DNA of 64,000 nt from Micromonospora sp. R77. GTDB lineage: Bacteria > Actinomycetota > Actinomycetes > Mycobacteriales > Micromonosporaceae. Below, one piece after another: positions 39,500 through 57,366 of this stretch. The stretch is taken from the NCBI RefSeq assembly GCF_022747945.1, contig NZ_JALDST010000001.1, forward strand, positions 310,001 to 374,000. Direction: 5' to 3'. The notes below the pieces were generated by a model. It was not told where the DNA came from. It saw only the letters and a list, made by a program, of their open reading frames with translations, and did not search any database. How positions within the stretch are numbered: the first letter of the stretch is position 1; each line of letters starts with the position of its first letter. The translations under genes were made by a program, and so were the position numbers.

Positions 39500-39658
39500 C
39501 TACGGCCGGTGGATGCAGCAGCCGGTTCCGGAGTCGGCACTGGCGGTGACCGCTGCGGGTCCGGCGAGGGCGATGCCCAGGGTGGCGGCCGCCGCTGCCA
39601 GCACGGTGGCGATGGTGAGGCGGATCCGGTTGCGGCGGTTGTTCTCGGTGGTGATCAT
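39500..39658 (-). CDS. Small secreted peptide, 52 residues, ending near a Cys pair
   Basis: A tiny reading frame with a good ribosome binding site (GGAAGGAAC, 7 bases before ATG 39658). It has a basic N-terminus (NNRRNRIR), one hydrophobic segment (residues about 13-35) and an AxA-type site near AVTASA, leaving a mature tail of about ten residues that includes SGTGCCIHRP. It lies upstream of, and in the same direction as, the LAL regulator and downstream of the RiPP genes. It lacks a thiopeptide leader. It could be a secreted signal or an orphan Cys-containing peptide. Confidence 0.55.
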   Translation of the reverse strand: MITTENNRRNRIRLTIATVLAAAAATLGIALAGPAAVTASADSGTGCCIHRP

Positions 39659-39847
39659 CGTCGTTCCTTCCGCGAGCTGAGCCCGGTGAGGTCCCCGGCG
39701 TGCTGGGTCGCAGGCGCCGCGGCCTCCGGTGGCGGATCCCGGGCCCGTCGTCGTGGTCGTTGCTGACCTGCAGACGGAACCCTCCCACGCAGGCGTCCGG
39801 GGCGACATGGGTACGTTGCACGTATCTTTCCCCGGTGGTCCGCGCGC

Positions 39848-41354
39848 TCAGGCCCGCAGGTCGAGCAGGGGCTCGGCGTACGCGGACCGGCCGCACACCG
39901 TCATGAGCACCGGCGCCTGCCCGGCCGGGGTGCCCAGCAGCGCGCCGAGGTGGTGCTCGTCGAAGGACCGGGCGGGCCGGGCGAAGAGTCCGTGGGCCGC
40001 GGCGGCCATGCTGAGGCCGTGCGCGACCCACCCGCACCACACCTGGAGCAGCCCCCAGGCGTCGTCGCCCAGCTCGGTGACGAGCGCGCGCAGGTCCACG
40101 GTGAACACGCAGATCGCGAGGGCGTGCCGTACTCCGCAGTCGTTGGCGGTGGAGAGCGGGTAGCCGAAACTCTGCTCGATGCGGGCCGGCAGGCGGTCGT
40201 CGAGGGTGCGGGGTCGCACGGTGCCGCCGTCGACCTCGTACCAGCCGGTCGGCAGGTCGGCGACGCGGTGCAGCACGACGCCGAGACCGACCCGCTCGCC
40301 GACCGCGCGCAACCGCCCGGTCGGGGCGGGCACGGCCGCCCAGGCGAGCAGGTCGTCGAGGAACGCGCGGTCCCCGCGTGCCGGCCGCGCAGGCCGGTCA
40401 GCGGGGCGCGCACCCGGCCCGCGGAGCGGCGCCACAACACCTGCTCCCAGCTCAGCACCGTGCCCGGCGGCAGGACGGGGATGCCAGGCGCGGTGGTCCC
40501 GGCGGACGCGGCCGGGCCGGTGGTCGCGGCCCGGGCCACGCGGTGGCCGACCATGGGCGCCAGGTCGGCGAGGGTACGGTCGGCCGACGCGGCCGGCAGC
40601 CGGTCATCGGGGACCGTGGTGGCGGGCAGGTCGACCGGTTCCGGCAGCGGACCCGCGTCGCGCAGCACCGCGGTGACCGGTGCCGCCCAGCTGCCCGGCC
40701 GGTGGCGCCGACCAGGTCGGCGGCGCTGGTGACCGTCGGGCCGTCGGTCGCCGCCACCGCCCCGAGCCCGGCCAGCTCGGCGGCCACCAGGAGGCTCCGC
40801 AGGTTGATCCCGGTCTCCAGGTCGGTCAGCGCGCAGCGCAGCGCGCCGTACGGCGCCGGGAGGTCGGTGTGCCGGGCGGCCAGCACCACGGTCACTTCAC
40901 CCGGGCCGGGCCGCAGCGGCGGCGGAACGGACACGTCGGGCACGTCGACCAGCGCGTGCCGGTAGACGTCGAGGTAGCCGGCCGGTCCCGCGGGCGGCAC
41001 GACGAAGACGTGCACGGGGAACTTGCTGCGCACCGACGCGGTCACCCGATGGTCGTTGGCCGGGTTGGACGGTTCCCGCCGCTGGAGCCCGAACGCGGCG
41101 AGCAACACGGTGCCCAGCCGCTCCCAGGAGACCGGCCCGGCCGGCAGTCGTCCGGCCGGGTAGGCCGCCGCCGCCAGCGCGGCCGTCGTGCCCGGCGGTA
41201 ACGGCCGGCCGCGCACCCCACGCGCCGCCGCAGGCGGGAGCAACGCCGTCGTCGGCACCGACTCGTCGATGACGATCGGGTCGTGCAGGATGCCGCGCAG
41301 GGGACCCTGGCGCAGCGCGAAGCGGAGGGTGTCGGTCGCGTCGGCCATGGTCAC
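39848..41354 (-). CDS. SagB-type azoline dehydrogenase (nitroreductase-like), copy 2, with two frame changes
   Basis: This FMN-dependent dehydrogenase of about 500 residues should oxidise azolines to azoles or a related step in RiPP maturation. The first part (SKFPVHVFVV, GYLDVYRHALVDV, LAARHTDLPAPYGALRCAL) and the end (FGYPLSTANDCGVRHALAICVFT, WGLLQVWCGWVAHGLSMAAAAHGL, ARSFDEHHLGALL) match copy 1 at 54870, but frames change near 40675-40700 and 40375-40395. Homology continues across both, so indel errors are likely. GTG 41354 overlaps the stop of the ThiF-like gene (GTGA), the pattern seen throughout this operon. It is the last gene of the minus-strand operon. Confidence 0.8.
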
Positions 41355-42849
41355 TCCAGCCACATCGGTCCGTACGCCAGCGGCAGGTCGCCGATGACCG
41401 GGTCGGATACCAGCGGGTCACCGGTGAGGCGGCGACCGCCGAGGGTGGTGTACAGGTGGGTGAGCGCGGCGGAGACGGCGTCGTCGCCGCTCTGCGCGAT
41501 GGTCCACGTCCCGGGCAGGACGACCGACGGGGCACCGGCGTCCACCGTGGCGAGCGCGGCCATCAGCGTGGCGTACAGGGCGGCGGCGGCCCCGGACGCC
41601 CACTCGGCCGCGAGCAGGTCGCCGGTCGGGTCGTACGCGCCGGCCAACACCCAGTCCCCCACCGGGAGCCGGCGTAGCCGCAGCGTGACCGGCCGCTCGT
41701 GGTAGTCGCGCAGCGCCGCAGCGACGGCCCGCGCGGCGGGACTGAGCCGGTCGCTGTCGGCCGGCGTGCCGGGCTCGTCCCGGAGCAGGTCGGCCCCGAT
41801 GAGGCGCAGGCCGCCGTCGAGCCGTCGGCGCGGCTCGTCGAACCCGGCGGCGGCGACCCGCCCGGGCCCGAGGTCCGTCCCGCACCGGGCCCGGGCCAGG
41901 GCCAGCAGGGCGTCGGCCTCGGCGGCGGCCGTGGTGACGCCCCAGCCGTACACGGCCGGGAGAGCCGTCCACCGGTTGCCGGGCGACCCGGCGCAGCGGC
42001 GGCACCGGGGCCGGCTCGGGCAGCGGAACACCCCAGCCGCGCCACGGCTCGGTCAGGTCCACGGGCGGCTCGGTGGCCAGCGGGACCTCGACGGTGTCGG
42101 CGGCCGGCCCGTGCACCACGGTCAGGGTCTGCGCCCCCCGCTCCAGCAGGTGGTCCAGCACCCGACGCGCGGCCAGCGAGCCGGCCAGGACCGCGCCGAC
42201 CGGGAGCGGCGCCGCGCCGCCGGCCAGCGCGCGTTGCCACTGCTCCGCCCGGTCCATCGCGGCGGTCACCCCCGGCAGCGCGGACCGGTCGGGCAGGACC
42301 GGGCCGACCATCACCGCGCCGGGCCGGGCCCATCACCGGCAGCACCGGCACCCCGGGGGGCGGCGTGACGTCGACGGCGACGACCAGGTCCGCGTCCGCG
42401 CCACCGGCACCGACGCCGGCGGCGGCGAGTCCACTGCGCGCGCCGGCCGCCGCCGGTCCGTCGCCGAGCACCGTCACCGTCGTGCGCCGCAGGGTCGCGA
42501 AGGCGGCGTACGGCTGGGCGCAGTGCTCCTCCAGGTAGGCCAGCACGTCGGCGTAGCGCGCGGCGCTCTCCCGGTCCGGCGGCGGGGCGACCGCCGGGTC
42601 GACGGTGAAGAGTGCGCCGCGCTCCAGCAGCACCGCGACCACCCGGTCCAGCGCCGGCCGGGCGGGCGCCGCCACGGTGGCCAGCAGCTCCTCGACGGTC
42701 GTCCCGTCGTAGAGGTCGCCCAGGGCGCCGTCGATCAGCGGAAAGAGCGCGGGTGGCCCGGTGAGCAGGAAGGAGTCGTCGGCGCGGGTGCAGCGGACGC
42801 CGCGCGGCGCCGGTACGAACTGGGTTCCGGGGCGGAGCTTCACCTTCAT
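41351..42849 (-). CDS. Ocin-ThiF-like/RRE leader-binding protein, copy 2, with two frame changes
   Basis: This protein of about 500 residues probably binds the precursor leader and presents it to the YcaO enzyme or dehydrogenase. It starts MKVKLRPGTQFVPAPRG, homologous to copy 1 at 51357 (MRVKLRPGTHFAPVPQG), followed by a winged-helix RRE-like region and a degenerate E1/ThiF domain (TVTVLGDGPAAAGARSGL). Frames change near 42325-42345 and 41985-42005. The C-terminal part (LIGADLLRDEPG, DPVIGDLPLAYGPM) ends like copy 1 (DPVAGDVPLVAGPV). ATG 42849 overlaps the M16 beta stop. Confidence 0.8.
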
Positions 42850-44123
42850 CGGGGCCTCACCTTCTCGGGGCCGAGCAGCACCCCGGTGTACGCCTCGGCC
42901 CGCAGGTACCGCTGCGCAGCGGCACGGACCTCGTCGTCCGTCGTCTCGTGCAGCGCCACCGGGAACCGGGTCAGCCACCGGGGGTCCAGCCCGGCGACGG
43001 CGACCCCGCAGAGGGCCTCGGCGAGGCCGATCTGGGTGGACTCGGAGATGGCCGTGATGCCGGCCAGGTGACCGCGGGCCGCCTCGATCTCCGCCGCGGT
43101 GGGTGGTGCGGTGTCACTGATCCGGGCCAGCAGCGTCCGGGTCTCGTCGACCGCCGCCCAGGCGTGCTCGGGGGCGCAGCCGAACTGGATGACGCTGAGC
43201 GCCCGCCCGGCCTGCTCCTCGATGCCGGAGGACGCGGTGTAGACGTAGCCACGCTCCTCGCGCAGCCGGTGCACCAGTCGGGAGCTGAAATAGCCGCCGT
43301 ACACGTGGTCGGCCAGGCGCAGGGCGATGAAGCCGGGGTCGACCCGGGCGAGCGAGGGCGCGGCCAGACGGACGTCGGCCTGCTGGGCGCCCGACCGGTG
43401 CCGGAGCACGACGGTGTCGCCGGTGGGCAGCGGCGGGGGCCCGAGCGCGACGGCGGGATGCGGTGCCGCCCAGCCGGCCAGCCGCTCGGCGAGCAGGGCG
43501 ACCGCGGCGTCCGGGTCGACGTCGCCGACCAGGACGAGCACCGACCCGTTCGGTACGAGCCGGGTCGCGTGCAGCGCGGCGACCTGCTCGGCGGTGACCG
43601 CGCCGACCTGCTCGGCGTCGGGGGTCTCCACGGCGGCCGGGTGGTCGCCGAAACAGTGCCGCAGCAGGGCCGCCCGGGCGATCCACTCCGGCAGCGTGCC
43701 GGCCAGCCGGACCCGCTGGAGCAGCCGGGTCCGCTCGAACTCCACGACGTCCGGCCGGTACGCCGCCCCGGTCAGGCAGTCGGCCAGCACCTCGGCGAGG
43801 GTGTCGAGCTCCTCGGCGAGCGCGTGGCCGGAGACCCTTAGCCGCTGCGGTCGGACCGACGCGGTCAGCGCCGCGCCGGCGGTGGCCAGCTCGTCGTCGA
43901 TGGTGGCCCGGTCCCGCCGTGCGGTGCCGGAGAGCAGGCTGGCCGCCAGCAGTTCGGCGACGGCGACGTGGGTGTCGTCACCGGGGGCGGCACCGAAGGG
44001 CACCGCGAGGCGCAGCTGGACCAGCGGCACGGCCGGGCGTCGGGCGACGAGCACGCGCAGGCCGTTGGGGAGCGTGAGGTCGGTGACCTCCCGGTCGTTG
44101 ACGGACGGGGTCACGGTGGTCAC
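42846..44123 (-). CDS. M16-family metallopeptidase, beta (non-catalytic) subunit
   Basis: This 425-residue intact protein has the M16 fold but lacks the HxxEH zinc motif, having AELLAASLLSG where it should be. It keeps the substrate-binding Arg/Tyr stretch YGGYFSSRLVHRLREERGYVYT typical of the R/Y subunit of heterodimeric M16 proteases. GTG 44123 overlaps the alpha subunit's stop. With the alpha subunit it should form one peptidase, most plausibly removing the RiPP leader, as PqqF/PqqG-type M16 pairs do for PQQ. Confidence 0.88.
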   Translation of the reverse strand: MTTVTPSVNDREVTDLTLPNGLRVLVARRPAVPLVQLRLAVPFGAAPGDDTHVAVAELLAASLLSGTARRDRATIDDELATAGAALTASVRPQRLRVSGHALAEELDTLAEVLADCLTGAAYRPDVVEFERTRLLQRVRLAGTLPEWIARAALLRHCFGDHPAAVETPDAEQVGAVTAEQVAALHATRLVPNGSVLVLVGDVDPDAAVALLAERLAGWAAPHPAVALGPPPLPTGDTVVLRHRSGAQQADVRLAAPSLARVDPGFIALRLADHVYGGYFSSRLVHRLREERGYVYTASSGIEEQAGRALSVIQFGCAPEHAWAAVDETRTLLARISDTAPPTAAEIEAARGHLAGITAISESTQIGLAEALCGVAVAGLDPRWLTRFPVALHETTDDEVRAAAQRYLRAEAYTGVLLGPEKVRPR

Positions 44124-45402
44124 CTTCCGCCTCCGGAGGGTACGAGGTGCACGGCGGCGTGGCGCCGGCCGGCCAACTCGGCGGCGGCCGCGCGGACCTC
44201 GTCCGCGCCGACCGTGGTCAGCTCGGCCAGCGCGGAGAGGGCCAGTTCGGCGCGGTCGTGCAGCAGCTCGAAGGCGGCGACCCGCCGGGTCCGGGCGCCG
44301 ATCGGGTCGATGTCGCGGTACCAGTCGGCCCGCAGCCGGGCGGTCGCGCGCAGCAGCTCCGCCTCGGTCGGGCCGTCCTGGGCGAGGGCGGCCAGTTCGC
44401 CGAGAATCGTCTCCTCGACGGCCCCGGCCGGGGTACGCGGCCCGAAGACAGCGGACACCACCAGGGCGTCCGGGTCGCGGCTCTCGAACGGCCCGCCGGT
44501 CAGACCGAGGTGCGCGGTGACCCGGGTCGCCGGCCCGTAGTCGCGCACGGCGGCCCGGACGAGTCGGCTGGCCGGTCCACCGCCGAGGACCGCGGCGACC
44601 ACCAGGGTCGCGAGGTACGCCGCGACGCGGGGGCAGGCACCTGCCAGCCGAGGGCGAGCGCGGGCGGGGCGAGCGGGTCGGGCCGCTCGCTGCGGCGTAC
44701 CGCCCGGGGTGGCTGTTCGCCGAGGTCGACCGGTGCCGGCACGGCACCCGCCGGGATGGCCCCGAAGTGCCGCTCGGCCAAAGCGAAGGCGTGCTCGGTC
44801 GGGATCTGGCCACCGATGGCCAGCACCGCGTTGCCCGGGTGGTAGTAGTCCCGGTGGAAGGTCTCGCACTCCGCGACGGTCGCGTCGGCGAGCGCGGCCA
44901 CATCACCGTAGCCGTCGTGGGTGTTGGCCTCCCGGGTGAACAGCACCGCCGGGAGGTGGAAGGTCGGGAAGCCGCCGTACGGGCGGTTGAGCACGTTGCG
45001 GCGGATCTCCTCGGTGACCACCGCCACCTGGTTGGTCACGTCGGCAGCGGTGACGTTCAACGCCCGCATCCGGTCGGCTTCCAGGCGCAGCCCCTGCTCC
45101 AGGGCCGCAGCGGGCAGCGCCTGGAAGTAGCTGGTGTGGTCACGGTGGGTGGTGCCGTTGAAGACGCCGCCGGCCGCCTGGACCTGCCGGGCGTACGTGG
45201 CCCGACCCGGCCCGCCGCCGCCCTGGAACATCAGGTGCTCGAAGAGGTGGGCGAACCCCGGCCGCGTCTCGGTGCGGTATCCGACGTCGTAGGCGACCGC
45301 GATGCCGACCGCGCTCAGCCGTGGCTCGTCCAGCGCCACCACCCGCAGGCCGTTGGCGAGCCGGTGCCGGGCGAGGGCGGGCGCAGCCAGGGTGAGGCTC
45401 AT
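44120..45402 (-). CDS. M16-family metallopeptidase, alpha (zinc) subunit, with one frame change
   Basis: This catalytic partner of about 427 residues has the inverted zinc motif HLFEHLMFQ (HxxEH, near residue 40), the downstream glutamate in EEIRRNVLN, and RDHTSYFQALP. The frame changes once near 44630-44645 at a run of five C, just before RVAAYLATLVVAAVLGGG; joined, the length is normal for M16B. A homopolymer error is likely. ATG 45402 overlaps the stop of the ABC permease (ATGA). Probable role: leader peptide removal in this RiPP cluster. Confidence 0.85.
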
Positions 45403-46150
45403 TTCGAGATGCCCCGTACCGAGCGGACACCGAACCAGAGCGCCAGCACCGCCGCGGTGAGCGCCACCGTCGAACCGACCAGGACCGGCCGGCCGGTGGT
45501 CTGACCGGCGAACAGGCCCCGCGCGGCGTCGACGACGTGCGACAGGGGGTTGACCCGCGCCACCACGGCCAGCCAGGCCGGCGCCAGGGTGAGCGGCAGC
45601 AGGACCCCGGACAGCAGCAGCGACGGCAGGGTGAACGCGTTGACGATCTGGCCGAACGCGCCCTCGGAGCGGACCCGCAGCGCCAGCGCGTACGACACGG
45701 CGGACATCGCCACCGCGAAGACCGCCAGCAGGACGAAGGTGAGCAGGATCCCGCCGGCCGGGGCCCGCAGGCCGAACGCGACCGCGCCGAGCACCAGCAC
45801 CGCGGCCTGCGCGAGCACCACCAGCACGTCCCGGCTGATCCGGCCGAGCAGCAGACCGAGCTGGCTCGCCCCGCTCACCCGCATCCGGTCCAGCACCCCG
45901 GACCGGGCCTCGGCGAGCACCCCGAAGCCGACGAACACCGCGGCGAAGACGCACTGCTGGACCAGCAGGCCGGGCACGAAGAAGCGCCAGGAGTTGCCGC
46001 CGCCGAACCCCTGCACGTCGTTGAGTCCGCTGAGCAGCGGACCGAACAGGACGAGGTACAGCACGGGCTGGAGCAGCCCGGTGACGACCCACGCGGGGTT
46101 GCTGACGGTGTAACGCATGGAGCGCTGGAAGATCACCCAGGCGGTGCTCA

Positions 46151-46154
<4 letters not shown>
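45399..46154 (-). CDS. ABC-2 type exporter permease (RiPP cluster, exporter 1)
   Basis: This 251-residue membrane protein has six transmembrane helices and the ABC-2 signature ending in a helix-loop before ARVNPLSHVVDAARGL, the DrrB-like pattern of antibiotic exporters. ATG 46154 has GGAGG 7 bases upstream and overlaps the stop of its ATPase gene. It should export the mature peptide or provide self-resistance. Confidence 0.92.
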
Positions 46155-47110
<956 letters not shown>

Positions 47111-47325
47111 GTTGACTCCCTTCTTCCGTGTGCCCCCACCATGGGCCTTTCCGAAGGGTCTGCCAATGCTTCCGCCACGCCCTGGCAGCTTGTTGCCGAG
47201 CGGCCCGGAAATCTGCATCTTGATGCCGCCGGGAAATCTTGTGCGGCGGCTCCACGATCGCGCATCGTGTTTTCAGGTCACCACCGGAAACACCGATCGC
47301 ACTCAATTCATGAAGGAGAAAAGCC
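47111..47325. promoter_or_regulatory. Divergent promoter region of the RiPP cluster
   Basis: A 215-base spacer between the exporter ATPase and the precursor gene must drive both halves of the cluster. The stretch next to the precursor is lower in GC (CAATTCATGAAGGAGAAAAGCC), with GAAGGAG 8 bases from the ATG. No clear palindrome was found. Confidence 0.55.
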
Positions 47326-47523
47326 ATGAACGCTACCCTCGACTTCGGCTCGTTCGACGTCAGCGAGCTCGCCGTCCTGGACGCCACCGACGCCGTCGCG
47401 CTGCCCGACATGGGCGCGTCCGTCATCATCATCATCGCCGACACCCCGGACGGCGAGGAGATCCTCAGCGAGGACCCGCTGAACGCCTCGGGTTCCGCGT
47501 CGACCTCGTCGTCCTGCTGCTGA
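47326..47523 (+). CDS. Thiopeptide-type RiPP precursor peptide
   Basis: This 65-residue peptide is the likely substrate of all enzymes around it. The leader (1-31) is acidic, with FDVSELAVLD and the motif VALPDMGAS, closely resembling the lactazole precursor leader (DLSELTV, VALPENGAS), where cleavage precedes the Ser. Then comes an unusual insert, VIIIIADTPDGEEILSEDPL, and a Ser-rich end NASGSASTSSSCC. A strong GAAGGAG site precedes it. The terminal Ser-Cys-Cys fits a pyridine attached to two thiazoles, as in thiocillins. Whether the core starts at the Ser of MGAS (34 residues) or at the Ser after DPLNA (11 residues) is open; neither matches known ring sizes. Confidence 0.82.
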   Translation: MNATLDFGSFDVSELAVLDATDAVALPDMGASVIIIIADTPDGEEILSEDPLNASGSASTSSSCC

Positions 47524-47674
47524 GCGAATTCCCCGGAACACGTACGACCCGGGCGGCCGACCTCTGATCTGACCGCCTCGCTCCATCGGTGACCGACCAT
47601 TTACCGGCCATTCGGCGGGTGCCTTTTCCGGAACTCATTCCGGTCGAGCACGCCGTGTATTCCCTGGAGTCACC

Positions 47675-48730
47675 ATGTTGAATCTCGGCCCAGGTAAGGC
47701 CGTCCGCATCACGGACCACAGTGCACAGCCGCGGGAGCTGCTGCGGGAACTCGCCGAACCGATCCGGCGACTGAAGTCCTCGCAGCAGCTTCCCGTGGTG
47801 CACGTACGACGGGGCTGGCTGCACGGCTCCCACCTGCTGGTCACGGCCCGGCCGTACGCCGACCGCGAGGCCGACCTGACGGAACTCGCCACCCGGGCCG
47901 GAGCCTTCGCCGCGGCCCGCCCGACGCCCACCCCCGACGAGCAGAGCTACCTGCGGCGGGCCTCGGACCTGGCGCGCTGGGAGAACGTCCGGCAGGAACT
48001 GTCGCCGGTGCACCCGCACGGCCACGTCGAGGTCGTCGCGCACCAGCCGCGTCCCGCCGGCGCGCCCGCCCTCGCCCTGGCCGCCGACCAGATCCTCGGC
48101 CGGTTCCTGGAGCCGATGCTGGCCAGCGCCGCCCTGCGGGACGACGAGATCCTGCCGCACCTGGCGGCCGTGCTGGGCATGCTCGCCCGCACCCATCCCC
48201 GGGGGATCAGCGCCGGGGTGCTGCCGTACCGCTCGCACGTTGAGGGTGTCTCCTCCGCCACCGGCAACCACACCGACCTGCGGGCCCGCTACGCCCAGCG
48301 CTATCCGCACGACGAGCAGGTCTTCCGGGCCGCGCTCACCGACGAGCCGAGCCCCGCGCTGCGCGCCTGGGAATCGGCCTTTCTGTACGCCTGGGGGGTG
48401 GCCGAAGGGCTGACCGCCGCCGGATCGGTCACCGACCGGGCCATCCAGGAGGCGATCGGCCCGACCCCGCTCCCCCTGGGCACCCCGGTCCGCAGTGACT
48501 TCATCGGCGAGATCCTCCAGACCGGCCTGGTCGCGGACCCGTCCTACCGACACGTCGCGCACCGGGTCGTGCTCAACGTCCTCTACTGGTCGCTGACCTG
48601 CTTCGGCATCACCCCACTGCAGCGCTACTACCTCTGCTACGGGCTGAGCGAGGCCACCGACCAGATCACCGGCGAGACGGCGACGCAGCGGTTGCACCGG
48701 TTCGCCCGCGAACTGAAGGGCCAGTCGTGA
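47675..48730 (+). CDS. Pyridine-synthase-like protein (thiopeptide [4+2] cycloaddition enzyme)
   Basis: This 351-residue protein has the size and character of TclM/TbtD-type enzymes, which join two dehydroalanines into the central nitrogen heterocycle and release the leader. The C-terminal part (YWSLTCFGITPLQRYYLCYGL, ETATQRLHRFAREL) and the N-terminal PVVHVRRGWLHGSHLLV strand are consistent with the SpaB-C-related fold. Assignment is by length, position and fold-like pattern and not by catalytic residues. GGAG lies before ATG 47675. The next gene overlaps it (GTGA). An elimination-domain role is the alternative, but the gene at 56337 fits that better. Confidence 0.75.
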   Translation: MLNLGPGKAVRITDHSAQPRELLRELAEPIRRLKSSQQLPVVHVRRGWLHGSHLLVTARPYADREADLTELATRAGAFAAARPTPTPDEQSYLRRASDLARWENVRQELSPVHPHGHVEVVAHQPRPAGAPALALAADQILGRFLEPMLASAALRDDEILPHLAAVLGMLARTHPRGISAGVLPYRSHVEGVSSATGNHTDLRARYAQRYPHDEQVFRAALTDEPSPALRAWESAFLYAWGVAEGLTAAGSVTDRAIQEAIGPTPLPLGTPVRSDFIGEILQTGLVADPSYRHVAHRVVLNVLYWSLTCFGITPLQRYYLCYGLSEATDQITGETATQRLHRFARELKGQS

Positions 48731-51360
48731 CCGATCTGCTGCACCCCGCCGACGCCCACGTGACCACCGGTCCCGGATGGGACCTGGCCGACACCGCGTT
48801 GCTGCGCCTCAACCCGACCCCCGGGCGCCGGCTGGGCGGTCCGACCCTGCGGATCGCCCTCCAGGCGCTCTATCTCGCCGGCCGCGAGCAGCACCAGTGG
48901 CGCGAACCGGCCTGCGCCGAACTGTACGAGCTGACCGCGGCGGCGACCGGCGCACAACGGCACCGGCTGCTGCAGCTCAAACGGGCCGTCCACAACGGCC
49001 GTGACCCGCAGCCCGAGCAGCTCGCCGCGCTCTGGCCGGAGAGCGCCCCGCCGCCGGCGGTCGCCGCCTGGTGGCGGGCCACCGAACGGTCGCTGCTGGC
49101 CCGCAACACCCTCAAGGCCGCCTACCCCAGCCTCCTCGCCGAGGAACGCCGCGTCCTGGCCGACGCGATCGGCGGCGAGCCGTTCCAGCTGTCGTTGGCG
49201 CTGAACTCCCCGCAGGTGCTGGACGCCGTGCAGCGCTACCGGCGCGCCCCGGGTGAGCCGTCGGCCCGGGACCGCAAGTCCGAGCGCGGCATCCTCCAGC
49301 ACTACGCCCGCGCGGTGCTGCGGGTCAGCCCGCTGTCCCGGCTGACCGCCGTCGGCTTCGCCCGGTGGTCGCCGGAGGGCGAGCCGATGGACCGGGCCCG
49401 GTTCGACCGGCAGCGGACGCGGTCGGTGCTGACGCCCGACCGCGCGTTGCTGTCCAGCCTCGTCACCGGCATCGTCTCCGCGCCCGGTGCCGGGGGCGTC
49501 CCGGACGTCGTGCAGCGCAACCCCACGCTCCGGGTCGACAAGCACGTGCGGTTCCACCACTGGGCGGCGGGCCGGCGGCGGGCGCTCGCCGCCGCGCTGA
49601 CCGACCAGGTCGCCGCCCTGCTGCGGCTCACCCAGCTGGGACCGGTGCCGAGCGGCACGCTGGCCACCGAACTGGCCGCCCGGCTCCGGGTCCCGGTGAG
49701 CGAGGCCGCCCGGCTGGTCGCCGCCGCCGTCGAGGCCCAGATCCTGGTGGCCGCCCCGGTCCTCGACGAGCAGGCGGTCGACCCCGTCCCGGCAGCGCTG
49801 GGCCTCCTGCTCGACCGGGATCCGACGGCCGCCGCGGAGATCGCCGCCCTCGGCGAGGCGCTGAAGCTCGCGCGGCGCGGCTCGGTCGGGGAACGGGTGG
49901 CCGCGCTGTCCCGGATCAGGGCCGTCGAGGGCCGCCTCAACGAACGCAGCGCCTTCCCGGCCCGCCTGCACGTCAACGAGGACTACCTGCTGCCGCCCGG
50001 CACGGTCTCCCCGGCCGGCTACGAGCCGGCGCTGGCCGACCTGCGGGCGGTCACCGGGTTCCACGCGATGTTCGACCGGCACCACGAGATCCGCGCGTTG
50101 CTGGTACGGGCCTTCGTCGACCGGTTCGGCCCCGGTGCCCGGGTGAATCTCGTCGACCACGCGGAGGAACTGGTCGAGGCGGTACGCCGCCGGGAGGGCG
50201 TCCTCGGCGCGGCCGGCGCGAGCGGCGGCGACCGGTCCGCCGCGGAACGGTTCGGCCCGGCCGACGGCTCCCTGGTGACGCTGCTGGACCGGCGCGCGGC
50301 GGCGCTGCGGCAGGTCACCGCGGCGATCGAGGCCGCCGGGGACGCGCCCGAGGTGGTGCTGGCCCCGCAGTGGCTGGCCGGGCTGGCCGACGGACTGCCC
50401 GAGCGGTACCGGCCGGCGGCGGCGTCGTACTCGATGATCGTGCAGCCCGACCGCGGCCTGCTCGTGGTCAACGCCTGCTACACCGGCCACGGCCAGGTGG
50501 TGAGCCGTTTCCTCGGCCTCCAGCAGGAGATGGGCAGCGACGCCACCCAGCGGCTGCGCGACCGGATCCGGCAGCGGTACGCCCGCCCCGGCGTCGCCGT
50601 CCGTGAGGACCGGGGCCTGCACCGGTCCAACATCAACCATCGGGTGCGGGTGCTCGACGACACCCTCGACCCGGCCGACTGGCTGGGGCTGCGGCTCGCC
50701 CACGACCTGGCCACCGACCAGTTGTCGGTGCTCGACCCGGACGGCGTCCGCGTGGTGGTGATGGGCCTCGGCATGAAGTGGATCGAGCTTCAGCCGGCTC
50801 CGCTCACACTGGCCGTGTGGCTGCACGACACCGGGCGGGTGGCGGTGGACCCGGTGGCCGTCCGGCACGCCGAAGCGGTGCGTGCCTGGGACGGCGATCC
50901 GGCGGGACACCCCACCGTCGGCTATCCCCGGCTGCGCGCGGGTGGCGTGGTGCTGCAACGCCGACGCTGGTATCCGGGCGCGGACCTGCCCGCCGTCGCG
51001 GACCCCACCGATCCGGCCGGTCACCTGGTGGCGCTCACCGCGTGGCGGGCGGCGCACGGCGTACCCGACGAGGTGGTGCTGAAGACGCCGTTGTGGACCG
51101 GACCGGCAGCGAACGGCGACGACGCCGACGCGCCGGGCGGGGCGACCGCCCGGCTGAGCCGCTACCTGACCGCCCGCCGGCGGGAGAAGCCGCAGTACGT
51201 CGACCTGGCCAGCGCGCTGATGGTGCGGGTCCTGCCCCAGTCCCTGGAACGGCGGCTGCCGGGCTATCTGGAGGAGGCGCTGCCCGGCGTGCGGTCGGGG
51301 GCCCGCGCGACGGAGTGGACCCTCGAACTGGATCTGGCCCGTGAGGCGGCGGACCGATGA
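48727..51360 (+). CDS. LanB-type dehydratase, glutamyl-tRNA-dependent N-terminal protein
   Basis: This intact 877-residue protein corresponds to the glutamylation part of a split thiopeptide dehydratase (TbtB/TclK type). It should transfer glutamate from glutamyl-tRNA to Ser/Thr of the core so that elimination gives Dha/Dhb. It has the Lant_dehydr_N pattern (RLNPTPGRRLGG, SPLSRLTAVGFARW, RLHVNEDYLLPPG, YSMIVQPDRGLLVVN, WIELQPAPLTLAVWLH, RRRWYPGADLP). Seven Ser/Thr in the terminal segment of the precursor are potential substrates. GTG 48727 overlaps the preceding stop, and its own stop overlaps the ThiF-like start. Confidence 0.9.
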   Translation: MTDLLHPADAHVTTGPGWDLADTALLRLNPTPGRRLGGPTLRIALQALYLAGREQHQWREPACAELYELTAAATGAQRHRLLQLKRAVHNGRDPQPEQLAALWPESAPPPAVAAWWRATERSLLARNTLKAAYPSLLAEERRVLADAIGGEPFQLSLALNSPQVLDAVQRYRRAPGEPSARDRKSERGILQHYARAVLRVSPLSRLTAVGFARWSPEGEPMDRARFDRQRTRSVLTPDRALLSSLVTGIVSAPGAGGVPDVVQRNPTLRVDKHVRFHHWAAGRRRALAAALTDQVAALLRLTQLGPVPSGTLATELAARLRVPVSEAARLVAAAVEAQILVAAPVLDEQAVDPVPAALGLLLDRDPTAAAEIAALGEALKLARRGSVGERVAALSRIRAVEGRLNERSAFPARLHVNEDYLLPPGTVSPAGYEPALADLRAVTGFHAMFDRHHEIRALLVRAFVDRFGPGARVNLVDHAEELVEAVRRREGVLGAAGASGGDRSAAERFGPADGSLVTLLDRRAAALRQVTAAIEAAGDAPEVVLAPQWLAGLADGLPERYRPAAASYSMIVQPDRGLLVVNACYTGHGQVVSRFLGLQQEMGSDATQRLRDRIRQRYARPGVAVREDRGLHRSNINHRVRVLDDTLDPADWLGLRLAHDLATDQLSVLDPDGVRVVVMGLGMKWIELQPAPLTLAVWLHDTGRVAVDPVAVRHAEAVRAWDGDPAGHPTVGYPRLRAGGVVLQRRRWYPGADLPAVADPTDPAGHLVALTAWRAAHGVPDEVVLKTPLWTGPAANGDDADAPGGATARLSRYLTARRREKPQYVDLASALMVRVLPQSLERRLPGYLEEALPGVRSGARATEWTLELDLAREAADR

Positions 51361-52942
51361 GGGTGAAACTGCGCCCCGGCACCCACTTCGCGCCGGTGCC
51401 GCAGGGCATCTACTGGACGCGGGCGGGCCGGTCGTTCCTGCTCACCGCCCCGGCGGGGCTCTATCTGGCGCTGGACAGCCAGCTGGACCTGTTGACCCGC
51501 GGCACCGACGTGGACGAACTCTCCTCTGCGCTGGGCGAATCCGCCCGCCCGGCCGTCCAGCGGATCCTGGACACCCTGCTGGACCGGGACGTGCTGCTCG
51601 ACCTGGACCGGGCGGGCACCCCGCCCACCCCCGGCGAGGCGGACCGGTACGCCGAGGTGCTGAGCTATCTGGAGGCCCGCTGCGCCGACCCGTACCGGGT
51701 CTTCGCCCGGCTGCGCGCCTCGGTGGTCCCGGTGCTCGGCGACGGCCCGGCCGCGGCGGTGGCCCGGCGCACCATCGTCGGGTACGGCGCGACCACCACC
51801 GCGACCGTGTCGCCCGGGACGGAGCTGGTCGTGCTGGTCGACGACGCCGACCGGCCGCTCGACCTGGTGGCCGCCGCGGCGTCCCTGCCGGCCGGGACCC
51901 GGGTCGTGCCGGTGCACGCGGGAGAGCGGATCGCCCTGGTCGGGGCGCCGGAGGCCGGCGACCTGGCGGAGTTCGTCGCGCTGGGCCGCCGGGCCGGCGA
52001 CTGGGCCGCCGCCGAACCGGACGGTGCGGCGCCCTGCCCGCTGAGCGCCGTGCTGGCCGGGTCGCTGGCGACCCACGCCGTGCTCGGCGCGCTGACCGGA
52101 ACCCTGCCCGCCGAATCCGCGCCGACCCTGGTGCACGGCCACGACGTGCAGGCGCAGCGGCTCCCCGGCCGACCGCCCCGGCCGCCGGGGACACACCCGA
52201 GGCGATGCTCGACCGGCTCGGCCCGCTCTTCGCCCGCTGGACCGGGCCGTACCGTCGGGAGCGGGACCTCGACCTGGCCCAGTTGCCGATGTCGCTGGCC
52301 ACCGCGGAGCTGGTTCCCGGGCCGGGCCGGGTGGCCGGCTGGGGCGACGACCGCGCCCAGGCCGTCCTGTCGGTTCGCCTGGCGGCCGCCCGCGCGGCCG
52401 TCGGTCCGGCCGGTCCCGGCGTCGCCGCGGCCGGGCCGACCACTGGGCACTGGCGGCCGACGGCGCTGCGGTTGCTCGGCGCCGCTCTGCTCGACACCGC
52501 CACCGGTACGGCGACCGGCTGGGACGACCCGCCGGCCGCCGCCCGCACCCTGTGGAGCCTGCTCGACGAGCACTACGAGCGGGCGGTGCAGGCCCGCCGC
52601 CACACACTGCCCGACCTGGACTGGGTCCTGGTCGAGGTGACCAGCGCGGACGGTACGGTCCGGCCGCCGAGTGGGGCGAGACGCCCGAGCTGGCCGCCTG
52701 GGCGGCGCTGTCGGCGGCCGTGCGCAGGCCCAGGCCGCACCGAGGTGCGTGCCTTGCTCGCCGCCGACCGCGTCGGCACCCACCGGCTCGCCCAGGCCGG
52801 CGGTGACCGGCTGCGGCGGCTGACCGACCGGCTCGACGCCCTCCTCGCCGCCCGTGGCCAACGGATCACCGGCGACCCCGACGCACCGGACCCGGTCGCC
52901 GGTGACGTGCCGCTGGTCGCCGGCCCGGTGGTGCTGCGATGA
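51357..52942 (+). CDS. Ocin-ThiF-like/RRE leader-binding protein, copy 1, with frame changes
   Basis: This protein of about 530 residues should recognise the precursor leader and stimulate the YcaO partner. It starts MRVKLRPGTHFAPVPQG, then a winged-helix RRE-like stretch (VDELSSALGESARPAVQRIL), then an inactive E1-like domain (VVPVLGDGPAAAVARRTI). Reading shifts near 52165-52195, and a short stretch (EWGETPELAAWAALSAAVRR, about 52665-52735) lies in a third frame before the end (DPVAGDVPLVAGPVVLR) resumes. All pieces match copy 2 in order, so indel errors in GC runs are likely. Confidence 0.82.
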
Positions 52943-54857
52943 CCGGCACACCGGTCGGGACCGTCCGGCTCGGCCCGCAGGCACCGGCCTCGTGGGACTG
53001 GGCGACCTGGGCCGCCGGGCTGCCCGGACACCTGGTCGCCGCCACGGGCGGCCTCGACCTCGGCTGGGAACGGCCTCGCGGACGGCCGCCGCCGCGCAGG
53101 CCGCCGCCTGCTCCCGGTACGGGTCACCGCGACGGAAGTGCTGATCGGCCGCCGACCGGCGGGGACGACGACGCCTGCCCCGGCTGCGTGCAGGCGCACA
53201 GCGAGTACCGCCGTTGGGAGACCGCCAAGCGACCCGAACGCGACCGGTCGGACCGGAGGGTCGTACGCCTGGGCAGGGCGACCTGCCCGCGGCGGCCGGC
53301 GGCGCGGCGTCCTTCCTGCCCTGGCTGGCCGAGGTCGTCGGCGCGGTGCTGACCGGCCGCCGGCCGCACGCACCGGTCGGTCCGGGCGACCTGATCGCCG
53401 TCTCCGCGACCGGCACGGTCACCCGCCACCGGGTGGTCCGTACCTTCCGCTGCCGGCTCTGCGGCGGGTCGGACCGGCCGCTGCTGACCGGGCCGGACGT
53501 GCCACCCGGGCCACTGGTCCGGCAGCGGCATCCGTCGCCCGACCCGGTACCGACCCGCTCGGGTGCCCCGTTCGGGCTCGACCCGGACCGGATGCGGGCT
53601 GCCCTCGGTGACGGCCGGTTCGGTCCGCTGGTCCGGGTGGCCCGCAACGCGGCCGGCGCCTTCCCGCTGGTCGAGGCGGAACTGCTGGCCGGTACCCCGG
53701 CCGGAGCCGGGCGGGCGGTCCGGTTCCGCGAGGCGGAGGCGATCGCGGTGCTGGAGGCGTACGAGCGCCTCGGCGGTTATCCGCACGCGGCGCCGATCGT
53801 GCCGCAGCGCACCCGCCGGGAACTCGGTGACCTGGCCCTCGACCCGACCCGGCTGGGGGGATACACCGACCGGCAGCTCGCCGCGCCGACCTGCCGGATC
53901 CGCCCGTACCACGAGGACGCCCCGCTGGACTGGGTGTGGGGCCGCCCGCTGGACGGCTCGGCGCCCCGGCTGGTCCCGGCGGAGGTGGGTTTCTACCGCT
54001 ACGGGTACGGACTACGCGGCACCGACCCGCGACCGTACTTCCTGGAGTCGTCCAGTGGCAGTGCGCTGGGCAACAGCCTGCCCGAGGCGGCTCTGCACTC
54101 GCTGCTCGAACTGGCCGAGCGGGACGCCTTCCTGCTCGCCTGGCACCGGCGACGGCCACTGCCGACGATCGATCCGGACTCGCTGACCGATCCGGACTGC
54201 CGGATGATGCTGCGCCTCGCCCGTGCCCGGGGTTACGACGTGCACCTGCTGAAGGCCACCGCCGACATCGACGTCCCGGTGGTGTGGGCATTGGCGATCC
54301 ATCGTGACCGGGCCCTGCCGGCCAGCTTCAGCACCGCCGGCTGCCACCCCGATCCGGTGGCCGCTGCCCGGGCCGCGCTGTGGGAGCTGTGCCAACTGGT
54401 TGCCGCCGGGCTGGCGTGGGACCCGGCCGAGGTGGAGCCGATGGTCACCGACCCCTGGCTGGTCGAGGACATCGCGCACCACTGGCGGCGGTACACGTTC
54501 CCGCAACTGCTCCCCCGGGTGGAGACCGTCCTGGGCGGCCCGGTCGGCACCGTCGAGGACGCCTTCCCCGACTGGCCGCAGCAGTTGAGCCGGGCCGCCG
54601 ACGGCGATGTCACCGGCGCGCTCGAGTTCGTCGCCGGCCGGTTCGCCGCCGCCGGGCTCGACGACATCCTCGTCGTCGACCAGTCCACCCCCGACCACAC
54701 CGCCGCCGGACTCACCGTGGTCAAGTGCGTCGTGCCGGGGATCGTACCCATGTGCTTCGGCCAGGCCCACCAGCGGCTCTCCGGCCTGCCCCGGCTGCGC
54801 GCCGCACTCGGGCCGGACGCCGACGACCGGTCCCCGGACCCGCACCCGTTCCCCTGA
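52939..54857 (+). CDS. YcaO-domain cyclodehydratase, with frame changes near the N-terminus
   Basis: This ATP-dependent enzyme of about 640 residues should form thiazolines/oxazolines from Cys/Ser of the core. The YcaO part (about 54050-54857) is intact: SSSGSALGNSLPEAALHSLLELAERDAF, GYDVHLLKATADIDVPVVWAL, HPDPVAAARAALWELCQ, and a C-terminal PDPHPFP end matching the PxPxP motif of azoline-forming YcaOs. The N-terminal part carries a zinc-finger-like CPGCVQAHSEYRRWE and CRLCGG pairs. Frames change near 53065, 53143-53165 and 53240-53290; the pieces (TATEVLIG, CPGC, FLPWLAEVVGAVL) join in the order known from TbtG-type proteins. Confidence 0.85.
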
Positions 54858-54869
54858 CCCGGAGGACCG

Positions 54870-56340
54870 ATGACCCTCGACGTGCGCCGTTTCGCCTTCC
54901 AGCAGGGGCCCGGCAAACGCTACCTGGGGGAACAGGGCCTGGTGGACGACGACGCCGCCACCACCAGCCTGCTCCCGCCGCCCGCGGCCCGTACGGACAC
55001 CGGACGGCTGCTGCCCACCGGCACCCACGACCTGCTCGCCGGGACGACCTATCCCGACCGGTGCCCTCCGGTCGCCGACCCGGAGCAGCGGTTGGGGCAC
55101 CTGCTGCTCACCGCCTTCGGGCTCCAGCGGCGGGAACCGTCCAACCAGTACAACGACCACCGGACGGTGCCGTCCGGGCGCGCCCGCTTCCCGGTGCACG
55201 CCTTCGTGAGCCGGCCCGGGCGGTTGCGCTACCTCGACGTGTACCGCCACGCGCTGGTGGACACCCCGGCGGCCGGGCCCACCGACGGACCGGTGAGCGT
55301 TCTGCTGGCCGCCCGCTACACCGACCTGCCCGACCCGTACGGCCGGCTCCGCTGCGCCATCGGCGAGGTCGAGCTCGGCGTCTACCTGCGCGCCCTGGCC
55401 GTGGCCGCCGACCTGTTCGGGGTGGCGGCGACGGTACGCCTGGACAGCGCGTCGGTGACCGCAGCCGCCTCGGCGGTGGCGGCTACCGGGCCCGGCGTCT
55501 GGTCGCCGCCGCTGGTGGTTGCCCTGGCGGGCGCGGAGTCACCGGCCGCGGGGACACCGCTGCCCAGCCCGGGCTGCTCCGCCGGGTCCGCTGACCGGGA
55601 TGCGCTGCTCAGCCCGGCCGGTGGTGCGCTGGACGAGGTGGTGGCCGTCGCCGCGCACCGCCTGGCCCTGCCGCCGACGCCCCCGCAGCCGTTGCGCGGG
55701 CTGCCGGTCCAGCCACCTGCGGTCGAGCTTGAGCTGGGCCGACCTGCTCTGGCGGCGCAGCGCCGGCCGGGTCCCGGCCGGCACGTACGGGTTCGCGCTG
55801 ACCCCTTCCCCGGTCGGTGAGGAGGCGCTGCGGGCCATGCTGGCGTGGCTCGCCGTGCCGCCGCCGGGCGGGCCGCTGCGCGAGGTCGCCGCCCGGGTAC
55901 GCGTCACGGTGGCGCTCCAGCGGGTCGGCGACCGGCCCACCGGCGCCTACCGGGTGGTGTCCGGCGAACCCGAACCGCACCGGCTCGACCCGCACCTGCT
56001 GCGCCGGATGCAGCCCGGGTTCGGCCGACCACCGTCCGCCGACACCGACGCCGGCTTCCGGCACGCGTCCCTGGTCTGGGTGTTCTCCACCGACGTGGAC
56101 GCGCTGCTCGACGACCTGGGCCCGGCCGCGTGGAGCCTGCTGCAACTGTGGTGCGGCTGGGCGACCCAGGGCCTCTGCCTGGCCGCCGCCGCGCACGGAC
56201 TGGTCGCCCGTCCGGCCCGATCCTTCGATGAGCACCACGTCCAGCCGTTGGCCGGTCTCGACCGGCGGGAGGTGCCGGTGTTCATGACGGTCTGCGGCAC
56301 GTCCCGCTTCACCGAGCCGATGCTGGACCTGCGGTCATGA
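54870..56340 (+). CDS. SagB-type azoline dehydrogenase, copy 1, with one frame change
   Basis: This FMN-dependent dehydrogenase of about 490 residues should oxidise azolines to azoles. The N-terminal half has FPVHAFVSRPGRLRYLDVYRHALV and LAARYTDLPDPYGRLRCAI, and the C-terminal half has ADLLWRRSAGRVPAGTYG, FRHASLVWVFSTDVDALL and CGWATQGLCLAAAAHGL, two nitroreductase-like repeats as in other thiopeptide dehydrogenases. The frame changes near 55720-55735. GGAGG precedes ATG 54870. The stop overlaps the next start. It is clearly paralogous to 39848-41354. Confidence 0.83.
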
Positions 56341-57221
56341 CCGACTGGCAGAGCTGGCACCTGCATGTCGACAGTCTCGCCCCCCGGGCGGTCGAGGCGG
56401 CGGTGCTCGACGTGGTCGGGCCCACCGTGGCCGAGTTCGGGCGAAACGCGGACCGCCCCCGACCGTGGTTCTTCATCCGCTACTGGCAGGGTGGTCCACA
56501 CGTACGTTTACGGCTGGCCGACGCCGGTCCGGACGCCGCAGCCGTCCAGGAGGCGCTGGCGCGCCGGACGGCGGCCGTCAACGCGGCCCTGCCGGCCGGG
56601 TCCCGGTTGACCACGGAGGACTATCGGCGGTCGGCCGCACCGATCGCCGACCGGGGCGAGGCCGGTATCCCGCTGCCACTTACCCCACTGCTGCCGCCCG
56701 GCTCGCATCCCGCCCGGTACGAGCCGGAGTTCGACCGCTACGGCGGCAGCGCGCTGATCGGCGTCAGCGAAGCCCTGTTCCACGCGTCCAGCGTGGTGTG
56801 CCTGCGGGCGTGCCAGGCCCGCGCGGGCGGTTCGCGGACCGCCGCGGACGGGTTGGAGGCGATGGCCGCGACCCTTTCCGCGTGGCCCGGTGACCGGCTC
56901 GCGCTGCTGCGTGGCGCCCGGGACGGGTGGGCGCGGTGGCTGGGCGCAGAGTTCGACGACGCCGCGGAGCAGGCCCGGACCCTCGCGCATCTCGTACCGG
57001 CCCTGCGGGAGCTCACCGACGGCGCCACCTCCCGGTGGACTCCCTGGACGGCACGGCTCGGTGCTGCCGCCCAGGAGTGGATCGACCGGCTCGGGCCCGC
57101 CCGGGCCCGGCAGGTCTTCGGCTCCCACCTGCACATGACCCAGAATCGACTCGGGGTCGGCGCCACGCGTGAGGGCCGCCTCGCCGCGATCCTGCTGATC
57201 CTGCTCGACGGCGCTCCGTGA
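56337..57221 (+). CDS. Thiopeptide-type dehydratase elimination protein (SpaB-C/thiopep_ocin domain)
   Basis: This intact 294-residue protein matches the C-terminal elimination domain of split LanB dehydratases (TbtC/TclL type): SWHLHVDSLAPRAVEAAVLD, WFFIRYWQGGPHVRLRL (the family hallmark) and a C-terminal HMTQNRLGV. It should remove glutamate from glutamylated Ser/Thr to yield Dha/Dhb. It lies last among the maturation enzymes; together with the proteins at 47675 and 48727 it completes the thiopeptide dehydration/cyclisation set. Confidence 0.9.
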   Translation: MTDWQSWHLHVDSLAPRAVEAAVLDVVGPTVAEFGRNADRPRPWFFIRYWQGGPHVRLRLADAGPDAAAVQEALARRTAAVNAALPAGSRLTTEDYRRSAAPIADRGEAGIPLPLTPLLPPGSHPARYEPEFDRYGGSALIGVSEALFHASSVVCLRACQARAGGSRTAADGLEAMAATLSAWPGDRLALLRGARDGWARWLGAEFDDAAEQARTLAHLVPALRELTDGATSRWTPWTARLGAAAQEWIDRLGPARARQVFGSHLHMTQNRLGVGATREGRLAAILLILLDGAP

Positions 57222-57366
57222 CCACCGCGCAGCAGCCGGAAAATGTGCGTGCGTCGTACCGATGTCCGGTCAGGCGGGTGCCCGCATGCTGGGTCTGAGC
57301 GGAATCCACCCGATCCGCTGCGGAGGCAGACCACGGTCGCACCGGCCGTGTGGGGGGAGGCATGAC

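Follow-up and report, generated by a model that had tools for sequence, protein, structure and literature searches.

A candidate thiopeptide-type precursor in Micromonospora sp. R77 with a hydrophobic and acidic insert and a predicted pyridine macrocycle of about 92 atoms

The Locus and Its Precursor Gene

The window analyzed here is a 64,000-nucleotide stretch of Micromonospora sp. R77 (RefSeq assembly GCF_022747945.1, contig NZ_JALDST010000001.1, positions 310,001 to 374,000), to which all plain coordinates refer. It holds a short precursor gene flanked by plus-strand modification genes and a divergent minus-strand set (table 1). The precursor frame is exactly the one proposed in the original prediction and contains all the motifs quoted there, and AAGGAG lies immediately 5' of its ATG. 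From the leader end onward, the peptide reads VALPDMGAS, VIIII, an acidic segment, and SGSASTSSSCC.

Table 1. Features of the precursor and its surrounding genes, in window coordinates
Feature	Position	Strand	Evidence
Precursor gene, 65 aa	47326..47523	+	ORF, homologue searches, class conservation
Leader, residues 1-31, ending VALPDMGA	47326..47418	+	Thiopep_pre/thiazolyl_B match, pN 0.094; boundary predicted
Ser32, predicted first core residue and first pyridine partner	47419..47421	+	39/39 in class; motif-synthase tie in 37 loci
Hydrophobic segment VIIII, residues 33-37	47422..47436	+	Hydrophobic 192/193, pairwise identity 0.41, pN 0.337
Acidic segment, residues 38-54	47437..47487	+	Conservation in class; DDLLGK-like acidic counterpart in synthase-less sister group
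Ser/Thr/Cys tail, residues 55-65; Ser63 predicted second pyridine partner	47488..47520	+	S55, S57, S59, T60, S63 39/39; pairwise identity 0.91
TbtD/PbtD-like pyridine synthase	47675..48730	+	NCBIfam TbtD_PbtD_pyrid E 4.5e-26, below equivalog cut-off; model and Foldseek
TbtB-like glutamylation enzyme (LanB1)	48727..51360	+	AlphaFold2 model matches TbtB and GodF
PbtF-like recognition/partner protein 1 (ThiF1), two frames in this assembly	51357..52942	+	PbtF match of a relative
YcaO cyclodehydratase	53214..54857	+	PF02624 E 2.9e-77, SagD family
SagB-like dehydrogenase 1 (SagB1), two frames in this assembly	54870..56340	+	PF00881 E 2.1e-5, second frame; single frame in relatives
Glutamate-elimination protein (Lant_dehydr_C)	56337..57221	+	PF14028 E 3.1e-33, TIGR03891
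ABC transporter ATPase, divergent from precursor	46151..47218	-	PF00005, DrrA-like
ABC-2 permease	45399..46148	-	PF01061 E 6.8e-25 on ORF 45399-46505
M16 peptidase with HLFEH, two frames in this assembly	44141..45387	-	PF00675 E 8e-13
M16 partner	42846..44090	-	PF05193 E 4.2e-27
Second ThiF1-like protein (ThiF2), several frames in this assembly	41351..42876	-	Comparison with relatives
Second SagB-like dehydrogenase (SagB2), several frames in this assembly	39848..41363	-	Comparison with relatives

Known precursor families match the leader alone, Pfam Thiopep_pre (PF19409) at residues 14-32 with 22.2 bits (curated cut-off 23.5) and NCBIfam thiazolyl_B (NF033400) at residues 5-32 with 22.6 bits (curated cut-off 30). 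The whole protein is below both cut-offs, yet the precomputed Pfam annotation of P0001 lists PF19409. A chance reading frame was rejected on the strength of 19 homologues found in a single-sequence search (E 5.6e-25 to 1.4e-5). We also rejected a chimeric or frameshifted copy of a conventional precursor, the outcome that was named beforehand as a refutation, since the insert is conserved among relatives, the layout is common to 39 sequences of the same class, and the identical peptide is encoded in a second genome of the genus, G882.

The candidate pyridine synthase scores 91.9 bits against TbtD_PbtD_pyrid, whose equivalog cut-off is 325, and is only ~20% identical to PbtD/TbtD. Its AlphaFold2 model (pLDDT 91.4) has PbtD as best PDB match (Foldseek E 2.6e-12, TM 0.72), and at E ≤ 0.001 the model matches PbtD, TbtD, and TsrL alone. 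The residues RGW, RSHxE, and RxxxNxxY are invariant in insert-type and short-core loci alike, as is Tyr304 (25/25), which aligns with residue 296 of the PbtD chain and would be the counterpart of Tyr293 of entry 8ejz, provided that the chain carries a three-residue tag. LanB1 is named from its structure model, for which TbtB is the best PDB match (E 1.9e-28, TM 0.60) and which also resembles GodF of goadsporin. The name ThiF1 comes from a weak match between the protein of a relative (L021:13921-15699) and PbtF (8t19, residues 16-93, E 9.5e-4), and that of the second LanB of related loci from similarity to LanB1 only; Pfam and NCBIfam searches gave no family name for LanB1, the second LanB, ThiF1, or ThiF2.

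In the M16 partner, HxxEH was searched for and not found. Loci of this class frequently contain a luciferase-like monooxygenase (PF00296, 10/12) and a second LanB (8/12), located in relatives between the M16 pair and ThiF2 (L021:1811-5190); both are absent from the window (between 42846 and 42978) and from G882. A small minus-strand ORF (39500-39658, 52 aa counted from an internal ATG), which ends in GCCIHRP and contains a stretch resembling a signal peptide, sits between SagB2 and the gene for a large LuxR-type regulator.

The gene set is that of a thiopeptide locus. It includes a [4+2] pyridine synthase gene (by the NCBIfam match below the equivalog cut-off and by Foldseek), split Glu-tRNA-type dehydratase genes (LanB1, with its TbtB-like model, and the PF14028 protein), and azole genes (YcaO, PbtF-like partner, nitroreductase-type protein) together with core Cys, Ser, and Thr, including the CC tail. 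An azole-free pyritide does not fit a locus with YcaO and a core CC, nor does a goadsporin-like linear azol(in)e/Dha peptide, made without a pyridine synthase, fit one with a synthase gene at 47675-48730. The original description of a thiopeptide-like precursor with a hydrophobic and acidic insert is thus supported by homology, by the gene neighborhood, and by the folds predicted for the enzymes.

Relatives of the Precursor

A profile search identified 173 relatives at E ≤ 0.1, of which the 120 listed were used for motif and span counts. By script, P.[ML]G[AS]S is present in 117 of the 120; P0083 is a fragment, and P0096 and P0099 retain just AS at this position. The distance from the MGAS Ser to the C-terminal Ser/Cys cluster in these 117 is 0-6 residues in 24, 11 in one, 14 in one, and 18-33 in 91. 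The layout, first described as atypical, is so against known compounds but not within its own family, where 91/117 listed relatives with the motif have the 18- to 33-residue span.

In the class to which the R77 precursor belongs, a run of five hydrophobic residues is followed by an acidic stretch of the TxDGEEIL type and then by SGSxSTSSSCC or SGSLSTSCC; another class reads VEDMDDLIGE..CCSSSSSTCCC. Some family members are Cys-free (P0024, P0030, P0032, P0033, P0035-P0037, P0039, P0041, and P0081), ending in STSSS or STSSSSS, and judging by these sequences all-oxazole or azole-free products are possible. Tandem precursor copies, two or three, occur in G121, G231, G183, and G091 (L037, L039, L040, and L041), some differing within the insert.

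Conservation was measured in 39 class sequences (P0001 and P0003-P0041, leaving out P0021). Ser32 is as constant as Ser55, Ser57, Ser59, Thr60, and Ser63, each being found in 39/39. Pairwise identity is 0.80 in the leader, 0.41 in residues 33-37, 0.58 in residues 38-54, and 0.91 in the tail; residues 33-37 are nevertheless hydrophobic at 192/193 positions. The pN values from 11 DNA sequences are 0.094 for the leader, 0.337 for residues 33-37, 0.210 for residues 38-54, and 0.162 for the tail, and a gap between leader and residues 33-37 as large as this arose in 14/5000 column permutations. On these figures residues 33-37 read as a product segment more than as leader, although we claim no positive selection, because the ready interchange of I, V, and F, or a codon bias, could contribute. 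The distance Ser55-Ser63 is fixed at 9 residues in 26 sequences and 7 in 13. The Ser32-Ser63 distance is not constant and runs from 29 to 36 residues, equivalent to 83-104 ring atoms.

Comparison of Loci with and without the Synthase

Among 37 loci compared, each of the 32 with a synthase has one or more MG[AS]S precursors; G422 has a further copy that reads MAAS instead. The motif is absent in 5/5 synthase-less loci (G215, G239, G133, G121b, and G171, the last cut by a contig end), the precursors of which retain FDLTELAVLDA or a near variant, a DDLLGK-like acidic motif, and a Cys/Ser tail, with IQAS in G171. The M16 pair is present in 12/12 loci combining insert and synthase and in 0/25 others, comprising 0/20 with synthase and short core (including G348, with 13-15 residues between) and 0/5 without synthase.

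In a LanB1 tree covering 32 of the 37 loci, the rows without synthase form one clade (100/99), which is nested in the insert clade with the VEDMDDLIGE class as its neighbor, so that the MG[AS]S motif was lost along with the synthase. Taking the tree and gene content together, we infer that synthase, M16/ABC genes, and MGAS Ser disappeared jointly on one occasion, with insert and tail retained. On the tree this joint loss is a single evolutionary event, and it was weighed as one. Four of the synthase-less sister loci (L076, L084/L085, L104/L105, and L135/L136, in G215, G239, G133, and the second G121 locus) have precursors such as DDLLSKSAVVEPACCSCSSSVSCCCTG, and possibly represent a group of linear azole/Dha peptides that has not been described so far.

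Predicted Maturation and Ring Size

Ring atoms were calculated as 3(n-2)+2, where n is the number of residues spanned, which returns 32 for lactazole Ser1-Ser12 and 14/17 for the pyritides. The arithmetic of the original prediction was right: Ser55-Ser63 (9 residues) gives 23 atoms and Ser32-Ser63 (32 residues) gives 92. Either would be outside the known natural range, reported as 26-35 for thiopeptides, with a 62-membered ring reached in vitro (PMC7210931), and 14 and 17 for pyritides, with a 68-membered ring reached in vitro (PMC9247985).

We favor, with a probability of roughly 0.55, the reading that the gene encodes the precursor of an uncharacterized thiopeptide-type RiPP whose core runs from Ser32 to the C-terminus, with a predicted ring of ~92 atoms. 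Ser32 is the likely synthase substrate because the MG[AS]S motif is present in all 32 synthase loci and absent in all five synthase-less ones. With this Ser as first pyridine partner, the second should lie in the tail, and ~92 ring atoms follow if that partner is Ser63. Residues 1-31 would then be the part set free.

The steps below are deduced from gene content, homology, conservation, and predicted folds. The YcaO protein, its PbtF-like partner, and the SagB dehydrogenases would form azoles from the tail Cys and possibly also from Ser/Thr. The TbtB-like enzyme would glutamylate Ser, and the Lant_dehydr_C protein would eliminate glutamate to give dehydroalanines. The TbtD-like synthase would couple the Ser32 dehydroalanine with a tail dehydroalanine, that of Ser63 if lactazole is taken as the model, producing the pyridine and freeing residues 1-31. 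Both parts of the insert would end up within the ring, the acidic stretch probably assisting the enzymes in reaching the distant tail, and the ABC exporter and M16 pair would work after ring closure.

Several known systems resemble parts of this scheme. Lactazole (laz) has a core opening with Ser after the leader, as predicted here, and a split dehydratase, YcaO, dehydrogenase, and pyridine synthase, whose counterparts are encoded in the present locus; the tail S61-S62-S63-C64 (SSSC) resembles its Ser10-Ser11-Ser12-Cys13, of which the three Ser, with Ser1, are reported as essential and Cys13 as needed for efficient maturation (PMC7210931). The lactazole pyridine Ser are, however, 12 residues apart in a 32-membered ring, in contrast to 32 residues predicted here, and the acidic insert, two dehydrogenases, two partner proteins, M16 pair, and ABC exporter set the present locus apart from it. 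Short-core thiazolylpeptide precursors of Streptomycetaceae (NF033400/PF19409) share the leader type, MG[AS]S boundary, Ser/Cys-rich tail, and homologous synthase and dehydratase, but their tail comes 0-6 residues after the Ser (24/117 listed) and the M16 pair is in 0/20 loci. Pyritides (mro) have a split dehydratase and [4+2] synthase, with leader and C-terminal recognition and large rings tolerated in vitro (PMC9247985); as described, their clusters are without azole genes and Cys, unlike this one, and their rings are 14- and 17-membered. The Ser-rich core also recalls the berninamycin/geninthiocin type, reported as the largest known natural rings at 35 members (PMC6306032), although the GenA core is given as 15 residues against 34 after the leader here. 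A text search of a limited set of papers gave no match to VALPDMGAS, STSSSCC, VALPEMGAS, or VALPENGAS, and a search of titles and abstract openings, not exhaustive and so not establishing novelty in print, returned none on this precursor class.

Of the three readings offered originally, the ring from the MGAS Ser over more than 30 residues is best supported, the nine-residue ring and the linear product less so. A 23-membered pyridine ring between Ser55 and Ser63 (17-membered with the STSCC end), leaving residues 1-54 with MGAS and insert as an extended leader, is improbable in our estimate. It is the simpler account of a constant Ser55-Ser63 distance, always 9 or 7 residues in a 91% identical tail with its Ser residues invariant, beside a varying Ser32-Ser63 distance. 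Closure at Ser32 is further opposed by the STSCC-ending members, which are without two of the tail Ser that lactazole requires, by an M16 pair left without an obvious task on a large-ring product, and by the low identity and sub-cut-off score of the synthase. The small ring, on the other hand, leaves the invariant Ser32 and its loss with the synthase unexplained, and gives no reason why part of a leader destined for disposal should change fast yet stay strictly hydrophobic. Judged from the precursor sequences, it is impossible as such for P0021 and P0093, since the Ser residues of their tails are spread over 5 and 3 residues and a tail-internal ring would have at most 11 or 5 atoms, respectively. 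An 11-membered ring was not obtained with either MroD or the Laz enzymes in the reported experiments (PMC9247985, PMC7210931). Closure at Ser32 is also compatible with the spans of 11 and 14 residues that exist among the listed relatives besides 0-6 and 18-33. Very unlikely is a linear azole-/Dha-rich peptide from the tail, with a leader to about residue 54 taken off by the M16 pair. Its outline matches the synthase-less sister group, LanB1 is GodF-like as well, and leader removal by M16 pairs is reported for class III lanthipeptides and proposed for subtilosin (PMC10885120, PMC12731061), but a pyridine synthase with conserved motifs accompanies the M16 pair in 12/12 loci, and the pair is in 0/5 synthase-less loci, where that model needs it.

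The locus might also make no finished product in this strain, whatever the family yields elsewhere, which we consider doubtful. G882, in which every gene occupies a single frame, matches window positions 36524-59807 at 92.1%. Relative to G882, the window carries 23 indels whose length is not divisible by three, clustering within 39835-57349, and these break ThiF1, SagB1, ThiF2, SagB2, and the M16 gene with HLFEH into separate frames. These five split pathway genes, together with the missing monooxygenase and second LanB, point to decay. However, 15/23 indels consist of one base absent from the window and 10/23 are crowded in 52.1-53.3 kb, as assembly errors might be, the precursor differs from that of G882 by three synonymous codon changes only, and G882 is without the same two genes though its others are in one frame. 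A second precursor copy was sought without success in 61 related genomes (weak matches only, E > 0.07). Extending the search to 160 genomes of the genus yielded one, and four of the 160 have a family match (two of this type, two short-core).

The M16 Pair and Possible Ring Opening

If the ring closes at Ser32 as we favor, the M16 pair should have a task other than leader removal, since a pyridine synthase sets the leader free by itself. Among the loci compared it occurs only where the insert would be enclosed by a ring, which suggests that it cuts inside the acidic insert, though leader-amide disposal or work with the exporter fits too. A ~92-atom pyridine ring that is closed first and then cleaved by the M16 pair within the acidic stretch seems to us rather unlikely, if somewhat less so than the small ring or decay. 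The product would be a branched, two-armed peptide joined via the pyridine, with a hydrophobic arm from residue 33 and an azole arm derived from Ser/Cys, and hence a thiopeptide made via closure and programmed opening.

Implications

If the MGAS Ser closes the ring, this family would contain natural pyridine macrocycles exceeding the largest natural thiopeptide ring known so far by more than a factor of two, made by enzymes of a kind already tolerant of large rings in vitro. The family offers many natural substrates for studying how a [4+2] macrocyclase joins two distant residues, and includes a related group without the cyclase and without its one predicted Ser substrate. The M16 pair poses a testable question of its own, whether proteolysis takes place within a closed ring.
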